Assembly: GCF_018881965.1 (NCBI RefSeq)
Contig: NZ_JACVPI010000001.1
Location: 1,184,018 to 1,248,017, forward strand
Length of the DNA: 64,000 bases
Reading direction: 5' to 3'
DNA from: Polynucleobacter sp. JS-Polo-80-F4
GTDB lineage: Bacteria > Pseudomonadota > Gammaproteobacteria > Burkholderiales > Burkholderiaceae
Part shown: positions 57,890-62,105 of the stretch, one piece after another
Layout of the letters: the number at the start of each line of letters is the position of its first letter
Position numbering within the stretch: position 1 is the stretch's first letter
Translations under genes and position numbers: made by a program
The notes under the pieces: generated by a model
What the model saw: only the letters and a program-made list of their open reading frames with translations
Told to the model about the DNA's origin: nothing
The model's database searches: none

Positions 57890-58156
57890 TTATTTTGCGC
57901 CTTCACATTTCTTGATGGAAGCGGCCTTAGCTGCGCCATAGAGTGGTTTACCTTCTTTGCTTACCGCTTTAGCTTCACAATCATTCGGCTTTGCATCACC
58001 CATACATTTCTTAATGGATGCATCTTTAGCAGCACCATAGAGTGGTTTACCTTCTTTGCTTACTGCTTTAGCTTCACAAGCTGCTTGGTCAGCAAAGGCG
58101 TATGTTGGAACTGCAAAACTCAGTGCAATACTTAAAGCGATGATGATTTTTTTCAT
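57890..58156 (-). CDS. Small exported Cys-repeat protein, PsiF-like
   Basis: The protein is 88 residues from ATG 58156 (MKKIIIALSIALSFAVPTYA), a clear Sec signal, while the frame upstream to 58213 is not needed. The mature chain is two nearly identical repeats of about 25 residues, CEAKAVSKEGKPLYGAAK with ASIKKC following, linked by MGDAKPND. The matching DNA copies (57898-57966 and 58009-58077) differ at only a few sites. The pattern resembles PsiF repeat proteins (phosphate-starvation-inducible), but the match is by eye only. Each repeat has two cysteines, so disulfide-linked helical hairpins are likely. Confidence 0.75.
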   Translation of the reverse strand: MKKIIIALSIALSFAVPTYAFADQAACEAKAVSKEGKPLYGAAKDASIKKCMGDAKPNDCEAKAVSKEGKPLYGAAKAASIKKCEGAK

Positions 58157-58268
58157 GGCAACTCCAGTTGTGAGTATTTCAGTTAATAGGCTACTTATAA
58201 GTACTGTAATCAAAATTTAAGTATTTGGAAACATAGGGAAAGTGCTATTCACCATAAAGTAGGCAATA

Positions 58269-58799
58269 TCAGGGCACTATACGGCGTGCTTCAGTAAATT
58301 TAGCGGCCCAATATGGCGTAGTGATGTAATCGAGGCGCACAGTTCCACCAGCGCTAGGCGCGTGTACAAATCTGCCTTGCCCCACATAGATTCCAGCATG
58401 AGAGTATTTTTCTCCAGTGGTGTTGAAGAACACCAAGTCTCCTGGAGCCGGAGGTTGACCTTCAATACTTACACCCTTAGTACTCATCAATTGAATGGTG
58501 CGTGGTAGTTTGATCCCTGCCGCTTTGTTATAGACATACACAATCAGTCCGCTGCAATCAAAACCGCCTTTGGGGGTATTGCCACCATATCGGTAAGGAG
58601 CATCTACCAAGCCAACCGCTGCTATAGAAATATCCTCAGTACCAACACTCGTATCTTGTTTGAATTGAGAAACTTTTGCAGTGTTTGGCTTACCGCTGAA
58701 TGTGCCGCATCCGCTTAGGATGAGTAAGCTACAAATAAAAATGCCGCACCCCAGGAGAGTGCGGCATGAGAGGGATTGCTTAGAGTGCGTCAGCAGCAT
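58269..58799 (-). CDS. NlpC/P60-family lipoprotein endopeptidase
   Basis: The protein (176 residues from 58799; an ATG at 58808 adds three) has a lipoprotein signal ending LILSGC and a C40 peptidase domain with the catalytic Cys in GGFDCSGLIVYVY, His in KYSHAGIYVGQG and a third polar residue region FVHAPSAGG. It likely cleaves gamma-glutamyl-DAP bonds in peptidoglycan (Spr/NlpC-like), anchored to the outer membrane. Its start lies inside the end of the phoH gene, so the two are translationally linked. Confidence 0.88.
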   Translation of the reverse strand: MLLTHSKQSLSCRTLLGCGIFICSLLILSGCGTFSGKPNTAKVSQFKQDTSVGTEDISIAAVGLVDAPYRYGGNTPKGGFDCSGLIVYVYNKAAGIKLPRTIQLMSTKGVSIEGQPPAPGDLVFFNTTGEKYSHAGIYVGQGRFVHAPSAGGTVRLDYITTPYWAAKFTEARRIVP

Positions 58800-60450
58800 G
58801 ATCCGCAAGACGTGAACGCTCGCCGCGTGCCAAAGTCACATGACCACCATGACGCCAGCCTTTGAAGCGATCCACCACGTAGGTTAGACCAGACGATCCT
58901 TCGGTTAAGTAAGGAGTATCAATCTGAGCAATATTACCTAAGCAAACAATTTTGGTTCCAGGACCTGCACGAGTCACCAAGGTCTTCATTTGTTTAGGTG
59001 TGAGATTTTGTGCTTCATCAATGATGACAAATTTGCTGACAAACGTTCTGCCGCGCATAAAGTTCATGCTCTTTACCTTAATGCGTGAACGAATCAACTC
59101 TTGAGTCGCGGCACGACCCCATTCACCGGCACCGCCATCCTCATTACGTTGCAACACTTCGAGGTTGTCGTCAAACGCACCCATCCAAGGCTGCATTTTC
59201 TCTTCTTCGGTACCTGGTAGGAAGCCGATATCTTCGCCAACTGGCACAGTGGCACGAGTAATAATGATTTCGTTATAGCGTTTGCTATCCAGTACCTGTT
59301 CAAGACCAGCAGCCAAAGCTAGCAAGGTTTTACCGGTACCAGCTTGGCCTAGTAGGGTCACAAAATCGACGTCTGGGTTCATGAGTAAGTTCATGGCGAA
59401 GTTTTGCTCACGATTACGCGCTGTCACGCTCCAGACATTATTTTTCTGATGAGAGAAGTCTCTCAATGTTTGCAGTAGAGCGGTCTTGCCATTAATCTCT
59501 TTCACCTGTGCGTAGAAGGGTGTAGAGCCATCCGGATTTTCTTGATAGACAAACTGGTTGACCAACATGCTTTGTACAGTCGGTCCGGTGACTCGATAGA
59601 ACATCGTGCCAGATTTAGAGTCAGCCCAGCTTTCCATATCCTTGCCATGCTTCGGCCAAAAATCTGCTGGCAATGACATCACACCGGCATACATTAGGTC
59701 ACGATCTTCTAAGACCTGATCATTGAAGTAGTCTTCAGCAGGCAAACCTAGTGCGCGGGCTTTAATGCGCATATTGATATCTTTGGATACCAATACGACT
59801 TCTTGACCTTTGCGAGTTTTTTGCAGCTCACTCACTACAGCCAAAATCATGTTGTCACCCTTACCTTCGGGTAAGCCTTCAGGCAATGCTTGTGTAGAGA
59901 ATTTGGTTTGGAAGAAGAGGCGACCAGTTACATCCTGGTTACCAAGCTTATTCAGGGGGATGCCTTCATCTAGAGTGCCGCTAGTGCCAGCAATCAGTTG
60001 ATCTAAGGATCTGCTGACGGTACGGGCGTTGCGGGCTACCTCAGTCATACCTTTCTTGTGATTGTCCAGTTCCTCAAGAGTGGTCATCGGCAAGTAAAGG
60101 TCGTGCTCAGAGAAGCGGAATAAAGAGCTTGGATCATGCATCAATACGTTGGTATCGAGTACGAACAAGCTAGGAGGTCCGGTGCGAATAATCCGTTTAG
60201 GTTTCGCTGGCGCAGCTGCTTTGTTCTCGTTGCGCTCATTACGCTGATGATGAACAGGGCGATGATCCGCCTTAATTTTTTCAAGAGCCACTTCTGCTGC
60301 AGATAAATCTTCCTCTGCATCATTGGTCCAATCAACAGCTTCCACTACCACTGGTTTTGCTTGAGCAGGACGTTTCTTTAAGTCGGGAGTATCTTTGCGA
60401 CTGAGCTTCACTTGATCAGCAATTTGAGTGGGGATTGGGGGCAGTGGCAT
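58780..60450 (-). CDS. phoH: PIN-PhoH family ATPase
   Basis: The 556-residue protein has a disordered charged N-terminus (1-90), a PIN nuclease domain starting at LFVLDTNVLMHDP (Asp99) with MTTLEELDNHKKG, and a C-terminal PhoH ATPase with Walker A GQAGTGKTLLALAAG near residue 368 and Walker B FVIIDEAQNLTP. PIN-PhoH (PhoH2-type) proteins are RNA-binding helicase/nucleases related to toxin-antitoxin systems. ATG has AGGAGAG at 3-4 bases. A terminator hairpin and a small upstream frame directly precede it. Confidence 0.9.
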   Translation of the reverse strand: MPLPPIPTQIADQVKLSRKDTPDLKKRPAQAKPVVVEAVDWTNDAEEDLSAAEVALEKIKADHRPVHHQRNERNENKAAAPAKPKRIIRTGPPSLFVLDTNVLMHDPSSLFRFSEHDLYLPMTTLEELDNHKKGMTEVARNARTVSRSLDQLIAGTSGTLDEGIPLNKLGNQDVTGRLFFQTKFSTQALPEGLPEGKGDNMILAVVSELQKTRKGQEVVLVSKDINMRIKARALGLPAEDYFNDQVLEDRDLMYAGVMSLPADFWPKHGKDMESWADSKSGTMFYRVTGPTVQSMLVNQFVYQENPDGSTPFYAQVKEINGKTALLQTLRDFSHQKNNVWSVTARNREQNFAMNLLMNPDVDFVTLLGQAGTGKTLLALAAGLEQVLDSKRYNEIIITRATVPVGEDIGFLPGTEEEKMQPWMGAFDDNLEVLQRNEDGGAGEWGRAATQELIRSRIKVKSMNFMRGRTFVSKFVIIDEAQNLTPKQMKTLVTRAGPGTKIVCLGNIAQIDTPYLTEGSSGLTYVVDRFKGWRHGGHVTLARGERSRLADHAADAL

Positions 60451-60458
60451 GGGCTCTC

Positions 60459-60620
60459 CTAAAAGAAAAAACCGCCAAGCGGAGTGCGTTGACGGTTTAT
60501 TACGAAACTAGTTGAAATGATATCTAAAAAACGGCGGGGGTTGCTCTCCAAGCCTGATCTGAGATATTCAGGTTTTTGATTCAAACGGATTGTCAGACTT
60601 TCCCGTCGTTTACGGTGCAT
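60459..60620 (-). CDS. Possible 53-codon upstream frame in the phoH leader
   Basis: A frame from ATG at 60620 (complement) runs for 53 codons and ends with TAG at 60459-60461, whose bases join the phoH Shine-Dalgarno sequence (TAGGAGAG). The predicted peptide is basic (starts MHRKRRES) and ends PLGGFFF, coded by the terminator hairpin. No family is known to me and its own ribosome site is weak. It may be a leader peptide that controls phoH, or chance. Confidence 0.3.
   Translation of the reverse strand: MHRKRRESLTIRLNQKPEYLRSGLESNPRRFLDIISTSFVINRQRTPLGGFFF
60461..60498 (-). promoter_or_regulatory. Terminator/attenuator in front of phoH
   Basis: On the minus-strand RNA a 10-bp stem (60489-60498 with 60469-60478, one U-G pair) with a 10-base loop runs into TTTTTTCTTTT (complement of 60461-60471). 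It ends directly before the phoH ribosome site, so phoH transcripts must pass through it. Either it ends the bcp transcript with phoH depending on read-through, or it is an attenuator. Confidence 0.6.
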
Positions 60621-60682
60621 ATGAATCACTTTACCCCAAAATTTGGGGTTTGCAAGCACCTCAGATCAAATTGTTGTAAAAA

Positions 60683-61150
60683 TTATTTAGTGGCTTGAGC
60701 CGCTTGTAATACCTCTGTCACATGACCTGGAACCTTGAGGCCACGCCACTCTTTTGCCAGCTTGCCAGAGGAGTCAAACAAGAAGGTGCTGCGCTCAACA
60801 CCGCGGACTTGTTTGCCGTACATATTCTTCATCTTCATGACGCCAAAGATCTGGCAAAGCGTTTCTTCAGTGTCTGCAACCAATTCAAAAGGAAGCTCTA
60901 GTTTGCTGCGGAAATTGTCATGTGATTTGAGGCTATCCCGAGAAACTCCCACCACTAGAGTATTGGCTTTAGTGAATGCTTCAATATTGTCTCTAAATTC
61001 ACCTGACTCAGCAGTGCAACCTGGAGTCATATCCTTTGGATAAAAATACAGAACCAGTTTTTTGCCTTTAGCAGATGATGGTGAAAACGTTAATCCAGAG
61101 GTTGCTGGAATCGCGCACTGTGGCATAGGTTGACCAATGGCTACTGTCAT
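60683..61150 (-). CDS. bcp: Thioredoxin-dependent thiol peroxidase (Bcp/PrxQ)
   Basis: The 155-residue peroxiredoxin has the peroxidatic Cys in FYPKDMTPGCTAESGEFRD near residue 45; the second cysteine of the usual CxxxxC pair is absent (Ser), so it may be a 1-Cys form or use Cys98 (LCQIFGV). Arg in GVERSTFLFD is conserved. It reduces hydrogen and lipid peroxides. It stands alone with a 38-base gap to arnD and a long leader towards phoH. Confidence 0.93.
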   Translation of the reverse strand: MTVAIGQPMPQCAIPATSGLTFSPSSAKGKKLVLYFYPKDMTPGCTAESGEFRDNIEAFTKANTLVVGVSRDSLKSHDNFRSKLELPFELVADTEETLCQIFGVMKMKNMYGKQVRGVERSTFLFDSSGKLAKEWRGLKVPGHVTEVLQAAQATK

Positions 61151-61187
61151 GATGATCCTTTGTTATGTGTCTCTAAGTTTTACTAAA

Positions 61188-62105
61188 TTAGTTATTTTGA
61201 ATAATCAAATCACCGCTGCGATTGGGAATTTCACCCCAGCTTAGCGGTAATACGGCTATTTTATCGAGTTGCTTGGTGGCTTCCCAGGATTTGTGAAGTT
61301 CACCCATAGTGACAAGGTCGTGACCTTGATTTAGCCATCCAGCCAATAGCTGCTCAAAGGCAGGCAATAGCTTTTGACCCTCTAGTTCAGCATGTAGCGT
61401 GAAGACTTGGTCATTTGGATTGCTTTGGGTGATTTCTAATAATTTTTTAACTGCGCCAAATTCATCTGCGCCATCGATGCCAATGAGTTCATCAAAGGTA
61501 GGGAGTGTGGTTGGGTACTGAACGTGCTTCGCTTTTCCTGATGACAAAGCAAGTCGATAGGGTATGAGATTGGGTTCGGCCCTACCATCGGATGAATAGG
61601 TAATACCCCACTGATCGAGTTGCTCAAAGGCAACCTCATTCATCTGCCATCCTGCTGCACCATAAGTGACTGGTGTATGACCGAAAATCTCTACGAAACG
61701 ATCCCAGCTTTTTTGCATCATCGCTTTTGTCCAAGAGGCATCTTGATTGCGAACGGCATCTTGCCAGGCTACGTGATCCCAAGTATGAATACCCGTCTCA
61801 TGACCTGCTTTATCAATTGCGCGCATTTCTGCAGCTGCTTTCTTGCCAATGTCTGGACCGGGCAGAAGGACGCCGTAAAGCAACGTCTTAATGCCGTAGT
61901 GCTCGACAACAGAAGTGCGACTTACCTTTTTTAGAAAGCCTGGACGAAAGACGCGCTTTAAGGCCCAGCCGGTATGGTCAGGCCCAAGACTAAACAGGAA
62001 GGTGGCTTTAAGACCAAAACGCTCCAGAGTGCGAGCTAGGTTAGGGACGCCTTCTTTAGTGCCGCGTAAGGTATCTACATCAACCTTGAGAGCTATCTTA
62101 GCCAT
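61188..62105 (-). CDS. arnD: ArnD, 4-deoxy-4-formamido-L-arabinose-phosphoundecaprenol deformylase
   Basis: The 305-residue polysaccharide deacetylase-like protein begins ALKVDVDTLRGTKEGVPNLARTLERFGLKATFLFSLGPDHTG (metal aspartate motif) and has GHETGIHTWDHVAWQD with the metal histidines. It fits ArnD, which removes the formyl group from undecaprenyl-phosphate Ara4FN in the periplasm-facing Ara4N pathway that modifies lipid A. It follows the ArnA-type dehydrogenase gene by 22 bases. Confidence 0.9.
   Translation of the reverse strand: MAKIALKVDVDTLRGTKEGVPNLARTLERFGLKATFLFSLGPDHTGWALKRVFRPGFLKKVSRTSVVEHYGIKTLLYGVLLPGPDIGKKAAAEMRAIDKAGHETGIHTWDHVAWQDAVRNQDASWTKAMMQKSWDRFVEIFGHTPVTYGAAGWQMNEVAFEQLDQWGITYSSDGRAEPNLIPYRLALSSGKAKHVQYPTTLPTFDELIGIDGADEFGAVKKLLEITQSNPNDQVFTLHAELEGQKLLPAFEQLLAGWLNQGHDLVTMGELHKSWEATKQLDKIAVLPLSWGEIPNRSGDLIIQNN

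Follow-up and report, generated by a model that had tools for sequence, protein, structure and literature searches.

The phoH locus of Polynucleobacter sp. JS-Polo-80-F4 raises the question of how transcription enters a gene whose Shine–Dalgarno sequence is immediately preceded by an intrinsic terminator, the latter being read as codons by a short upstream frame. The locus lies in a stretch of 64,000 nucleotides, analysed here at its full length (the window). The initial annotation had placed a terminator hairpin with a U tract just before the phoH Shine–Dalgarno sequence and a 53-codon frame that runs through it and stops in the Shine–Dalgarno bases, and had read this as the geometry of translation-coupled attenuation. 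Both elements are there, and the hairpin holds up under the thermodynamic folding that had been suggested as a check (Table 1). The window phoH is 99% identical to that of Polynucleobacter sp. UK-Gri1-W3, the nearest named relative found. Downstream of phoH there is a 107-codon frame (57890..58213, minus strand) with two copies of CEAKAVSKEGKPLYGAAK, which presumably resembles PsiF.

Table 1. Features of the bcp–phoH region (window coordinates)
Feature	Position	Strand	Basis or remark
bcp-like peroxiredoxin gene	60683..61150	-	upstream neighbour; Pfam AhpC-TSA 1.2e-30
bcp–phoH gap	60682..60451	-	232 nt; bcp stop ends at 60683, phoH ATG at 60450
phoH, 556 aa, PIN domain and PhoH ATPase	58780..60450	-	Pfam PIN_4 3.5e-35, PhoH 2.6e-47
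Predicted -35 box TTGCAA of the leader promoter	60650..60655	-	box and spacing in Polynucleobacter leaders
Predicted -10 box TAAAGT	60628..60633	-	7 nt before the upstream ATG
Upstream frame, 53 sense codons, MHRKRRESLTIRL...GGFFF, predicted leaderless	60459..60620	-	open frame kept, stop-creating changes avoided
Stop codon TAG of the upstream frame	60461..60459	-	overlaps AGGAG of the phoH Shine–Dalgarno sequence
Inner hairpin within the upstream frame; RNA polymerase may pause here	60552..60573	-	compensatory changes
C-rich stretch followed by a U tract (AACCCCCGCCGUUUUUU), candidate pause region	60526..60542	-	mostly conserved across the 27-leader alignment; putative role
Intrinsic terminator hairpin, coinciding with codons of the upstream frame	60469..60498	-	-13.8 kcal/mol; compensatory changes
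Terminator U tract TTTTTTCTTTT	60461..60471	-	first bases also pair in the hairpin
phoH Shine–Dalgarno sequence AGGAGAG	60454..60460	-	sequence

Our scan of the window for hairpins of -10 kcal/mol or better followed by a T run yields 24 terminator-like sites, and the one in the phoH leader is the only one followed within 25 nt by an in-frame ATG belonging to a frame of 120 codons or more. A simple terminator scan does not list this hairpin, probably because of its loop and bulge. The whole leader does not fold with unusual stability (z of -1.44; 23 of 200 shuffles fold as well), and hence the case for an attenuator rests on conservation. The length of the window frame alone is unremarkable too, an equally long open frame being present in 6.3% of base shuffles.

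Matches were obtained in 179 of 186 Polynucleobacter genomes, and from a subset of these we took 123 loci, some of them from the same genome, which yielded 104 distinct gaps. The first classification of the frames required a stop at most 22 nt before phoH and left eight gaps formally without a frame. The terminator is traversed by the frame in 100 gaps out of 104, namely 89 of the long type, seven of the short type and four others; since an open frame was the search criterion for the 89, the denominator to trust is 104. The long-type frames have 47–53 codons and differ in length by whole codons, and the two other forward frames of the same 89 leaders contain stops in 88 and 89 cases, respectively. 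The short-type frames, 21 codons in length (MLKNTFTSITATPPGRRFFLY and the like), come from a distant clade and also end in the Shine–Dalgarno sequence. All 96 leaders classed as framed have a hairpin with a folding energy of -9.5 kcal/mol or lower, with only 10–21 nt between the U tract and phoH.

The remaining gaps are as follows. In L032, L082, L172 and L202 the frame passes through the terminator and then on into phoH. In L033 and L034 a frame with the usual kind of start also reads into phoH (122 and 115 codons, overlapping it), and there is no strong terminator hairpin. A one-base deletion in L022 ends the frame after 12 codons, the phoH match there having no stops. In L053 the leader frame has acquired a stop codon, the hairpin is weakened and phoH itself is a pseudogene with ten stops inside. 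Two peculiarities may be mentioned separately. In L202 (genome G182) one extra T in the U tract joins the upstream frame in frame with phoH, so that 628 codons are open; in L035 (genome G023) phoH is a pseudogene with six stops inside, and the leader frame is nonetheless intact (L053 comes from genome G151).

Selection on the frame was assessed in 41 pairs of long-type leaders, each sequence being used once, by setting the changes seen against an expectation obtained by placing them at random on the same bases. In frame 0 there is one stop-creating change against 15.3 expected, while in the shifted frames such changes number 53.5 against 24.7 and 33 against 23.4. Amino-acid-changing substitutions in frame 0 occur at the neutral rate, 331.5 observed and 332.1 expected. 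The synonymous excess that one would expect of a real frame is present but small (161.5 observed, 146.5 expected, P 0.017), so this prediction is borne out weakly. It is pronounced in codons 2–13, with 23 synonymous changes against 16 expected, a number reached in none of 300 simulations, and the first residues of the upstream peptide may therefore matter. As a yardstick, the last 50 codons of bcp have 370.5 amino-acid changes against 659 expected in the same test, and the first 18 codons of phoH have 27.5 against 89. A third yardstick, phoH codons 91–140 (23 of the 41 pairs; 512 amino-acid changes against 675.5), was dropped, as length differences there were left unaligned. Judging by these substitution counts, the frame is maintained open, whereas the peptide is under hardly any constraint past its first twelve residues or so. 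This is as expected if translating the frame matters and its product does not, and it agrees with the principle of pyrBI that translation, not the peptide, counts, codons 2–13 excepted.

The same data bear on whether the frame might instead be a small gene whose protein is functional, such as a PhoH partner or an antitoxin. In mycobacteria, a short gene, PhoAT, is likewise situated directly upstream of the PIN-PhoH gene; the PhoAT–PhoH2 pair is described as cotranscribed and PhoAT as a protein interacting with PhoH2 (PMC7390352). The position is thus the same, codons 2–13 are under some purifying selection, and the peptide N-terminus is basic and Arg-rich, the latter in Polynucleobacter only. 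However, compared with PhoAT as described, the phoH-leader peptide is barely conserved and has a terminator inside its frame; its sequence is nearly unconstrained, amino-acid changes being neutral over the whole frame, and in other genera this position is taken by unrelated peptides (see below). Searches of Pfam and NCBIfam with the upstream peptide gave no match, and AlphaFold2, given 14 aligned sequences, produced no confident fold (mean pLDDT 58.7, pTM 0.31). The pattern of changes therefore argues against a conserved small protein like PhoAT, and we consider this explanation quite unlikely.

The RNA elements were analysed in 27 chosen long-type leaders for two helices, the terminator and the inner hairpin. 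In the two helices together 98.4% of cells are paired, and five pairs have changes on both sides. Their covariation score is reached in none of 500 shuffles, and versions of the helices slid along the alignment are only 21.5–50.5% paired. The number of further pair types shows no excess over shuffles (415 of 500 reach the observed number), and four of the eleven terminator pairs are invariant and hence uninformative on covariation. In the inner hairpin, three of the five pairs have changed on both sides and 97.8% of cells are paired. Thus compensatory changes, which the initial annotation proposed to look for in relatives, are seen in both helices, and the frame and the hairpin are indeed kept across the genus, with the layout recurring in other Burkholderiaceae. 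The second weak pairing, noted earlier at about 60525–60610, turned out to be half right: the hairpin at 60573..60552 is real, as its compensatory changes indicate, but it does not look like a second terminator, since the T run (60531..60526) starts about 20 nt past it. This short U tract is mostly conserved in the alignment of 27 leaders. An antiterminator excluding the terminator was not found; the consensus fold comprises the terminator and separate upstream hairpins only.

The promoter was scored in the long-type leaders only (n=89). The best -10 box ends 6–8 nt before the ATG in 88 of them and reads TAAAGT in 81 and TACAGT in seven; the -35 box is TTGCAA in 80, and the spacer is 16 in all 89. 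With the usual spacing, the distance from the -10 box to the ATG places the transcription start at the AUG or right beside it, and hence the upstream mRNA is probably leaderless. This promoter is absent from the list produced by a simple promoter scan. Leaderless mRNAs are on record in Burkholderia cenocepacia (PMC4603805) and Cupriavidus metallidurans (PMC7563307), and the word phoH does not occur in the main texts of these two papers. The B. cenocepacia RNAs ncS18 and ncS21 were considered as candidates for this leader and set aside, as the tables of PMC4603805 yielded no link to phoH. A perfect palindrome, CCCCAAA-T-TTTGGGG (60648..60634, minus strand), lies between the -35 and -10 boxes. 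A palindrome-like sequence is present between the boxes in much of the main clade and is degenerate outside it; it is possible that the palindrome is an operator.

Outside Polynucleobacter, 118 distinct gaps were considered. The layout was defined by a -10-like box 7–8 nt before an ATG with a terminator behind, the spacing thus being built into the search. It is present in 81 gaps, named as Cupriavidus, Ralstonia, Pandoraea, Burkholderia, Paraburkholderia, Caballeronia, Trinickia, Mycetohabitans and others, and was not detected in 37. More than half of the latter have genus names that we take to belong to the Oxalobacteraceae, and there are also some Comamonadaceae-like records. One of the 37, L234, does have the promoter and the frame start, the phoH ATG being called inside the leader, whereas in L064 and L257, from the same family, the layout is truly absent. 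Three Cupriavidus-type leaders and L062 were caught by the second search pattern, not by the first.

The frame passes the U tract in 74 of these 81 leaders, while the other two frames are open in one and 20; in an earlier pass over fewer loci the respective numbers were 41 of 44, zero and eight. The seven misses are L065, L067, L098, L123, L235, L241 and L246. L067 is counted here, yet its correct ATG gives a traversing frame. The frames of L098, L123, L235 and L241, all of one Caballeronia-like type, stop in the hairpin loop, and those of L065 (only five codons) and L246 (26 codons) end before the hairpin. In 38 Burkholderia-type leaders the distance from the ATG to the terminator takes 17 values, from 109 to 187 nt; 32 leaders are in one phase, and the phase-changed L242, L252 and L260 are open in the new phase. 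In 29 non-Polynucleobacter pairs, selected to have traversing frames, which favours the result on stops, there are no stop-creating changes against 4.0 expected, and the amino-acid-changing and synonymous changes number 160 against 164.3 and 77 against 68.8, respectively.

The peptides seem unrelated between most genera (MHRKRR, MSSDSGCH and the similar MSTKSGCH, MIKRIERD, MSACP), and the last arm of the terminator is read as GGF, RLF or AAF, depending on the genus. Most frames in Polynucleobacter, Cupriavidus, Ralstonia and Pandoraea stop no more than about 25 nt from phoH, and in the Burkholderia types the end is usually situated roughly 80–300 nt before the gene. By sequence comparison, the shared factor is the passage of the frame through the terminator. 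In L100, L103, L110 and other Burkholderia-type leaders a recurrent block, AAGGAGCC.ATCGAA..CCAGGCGAACCGGC, is seen between the terminator and phoH, inside the upstream frame.

The hairpin might be merely the terminator of bcp, with phoH having its own promoter or being subject only to translational coupling, and the frame being incidental. Indeed, the distant relatives L142, L147 and L148 have bcp–phoH terminators without the leaderless layout, and a -10-like TAATAA or TTATAA is situated just before the hairpin in much of the main clade. However, these bases are not retained throughout the alignment, and the interval between the U tract and phoH in the 96 framed leaders is too short for a promoter. 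Moreover, the frame is kept open through the hairpin, and the distant frame ends of the Burkholderia types make translational coupling alone insufficient there. This explanation thus seems very unlikely.

We consider it probable that the leader is a translation-dependent transcription attenuator of phoH, similar to that of pyrBI and formed on a leaderless frame. The geometry proposed in the initial annotation is supported by the conservation of frame and hairpin, the avoidance of stops and the recurrence in other genera; the predicted leaderless start and the occurrence outside Polynucleobacter go further than that annotation. According to this model, the promoter right after bcp would start the RNA at the ATG of the short frame, or one or two nucleotides from it, and the frame would be translated as a leaderless mRNA, as its promoter spacing suggests. 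About 120 nt further on (the hairpin of the window starts 122 nt after the upstream ATG), RNA polymerase would make the intrinsic terminator inside the last codons of the frame. With no ribosome close by, the hairpin would form and transcription would end just before phoH, whereas a closely following ribosome would cover the hairpin bases, and the polymerase would continue into phoH. The peptide itself would be largely irrelevant to the attenuation. In Polynucleobacter, the position of the stop codon in the Shine–Dalgarno sequence could also couple the translation of phoH to that of the frame.

Repression of intrinsic terminators by ribosomes, just after coding regions or well inside them, has been measured (PMC4824070, PMC5021804), and coupling within the first 100 bp is reported to need a pause (PMC4824070). 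The inner hairpin, situated 48–69 nt into the RNA, may make the polymerase pause long enough for the first ribosome to close up on it; a further candidate pause is the U tract at 60531..60526. The distances vary: in the short type the hairpin begins only 25–26 nt after the ATG (three of the seven leaders, those measured), and in some other genera (L105, L070) there are about 50–90 nt from the ATG to the last arm of the hairpin. In the short type, a ribosome at the start codon or just past it would have to block the hairpin, and this spacing is the weakest point of the attenuation model.

The terminated RNA, about 160 nt in length, may instead be the main product, acting in trans as a regulatory RNA and/or a small mRNA, with read-through into phoH being secondary. 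It has its own predicted promoter, conserved hairpins and a strong terminator, and there is a precedent in the trpL RNA of Sinorhizobium, a leaderless attenuator RNA that is reported to act also in trans (PMC7298713). On the other hand, an open frame is not something that a small RNA requires; nevertheless, changes creating stops are avoided, and in several genera the frame crosses the terminator despite the otherwise diverged sequence. An Rfam search of positions 58000–62000 gave no family at the gathering score and only two sub-threshold matches. The RNA lies before phoH in every leader examined, but as the loci were picked by phoH, this does not discriminate between the two possibilities. 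We regard action in trans as the main function as unlikely.

The attenuator as proposed is close to several known systems. In the pyrBI operon of Escherichia coli the leader frame, pyrL, also contains an intrinsic terminator before the gene, and a close ribosome is described as preventing the hairpin, which is the action proposed here (PMC4824070, PMC5021804); by the sequence alignments, the frame likewise traverses an intrinsic terminator just upstream of the presumably regulated gene in 100 of the 104 Polynucleobacter gaps. The phoH leader differs in its frame being predicted to be leaderless and in the gene, UTP sensing being a feature of pyrBI. The RNA of trpL in Sinorhizobium meliloti starts with the ATG of the leader frame, as predicted here, and this frame, too, precedes an intrinsic terminator (PMC7298713). 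However, control by trpL depends on an antiterminator and on stalling at Trp codons, whereas in the phoH leader neither a run of control codons nor an alternative fold was found: the codon table of 89 leaders has no conserved run of one amino acid of the trp or his type. The pyrBI principle and leaderless attenuator frames, exemplified by S. meliloti trpL, are thus already known, separately.

Two other systems are more remote. CruR of Bordetella pertussis is also an upstream frame from a betaproteobacterium by which transcription of the following genes is controlled, but it is described as a conserved protein that senses copper by stalling, and the termination is Rho-dependent (PMC9426467). 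The uORFC-6-1 motif upstream of hflX in the Bacillales is similar in that the leader of a gene for an RNA helicase contains an upstream frame, but the phylum, the RNA and the presumed mechanism, stalling, are different (PMC8632094). The same survey of structured RNAs, which includes Polynucleobacter, reports icd and carA motifs, and its main text does not contain the word phoH. The initial annotation knew of no such control of PIN-PhoH genes, and none was found in the open-licence papers searched.

As the peptide lacks a run of any single amino acid, the candidates for the input are general translation capacity, leaderless initiation and UTP. As a tentative generalization, which we put forward as possible rather than likely, throughout the Burkholderiaceae the transcription of phoH may be licensed by leaderless translation, with neither a ligand nor a specific leader peptide. 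On this reading the attenuator would report whether ribosomes can start on the 5'-terminal AUG and keep pace with RNA polymerase, and the production of an RNA helicase–RNase would follow the state of the translation machinery.

PIN-PhoH proteins are described as widespread, with poorly known biology (PMC7390352). The leader would offer a naturally occurring transcription attenuator driven by leaderless initiation instead of initiation at a Shine–Dalgarno sequence, and would document clearly how selection keeps a frame open while acting little on the peptide. A conserved switch tying PIN-PhoH synthesis to translation would point to a role of these proteins in the upkeep of RNA or ribosomes.
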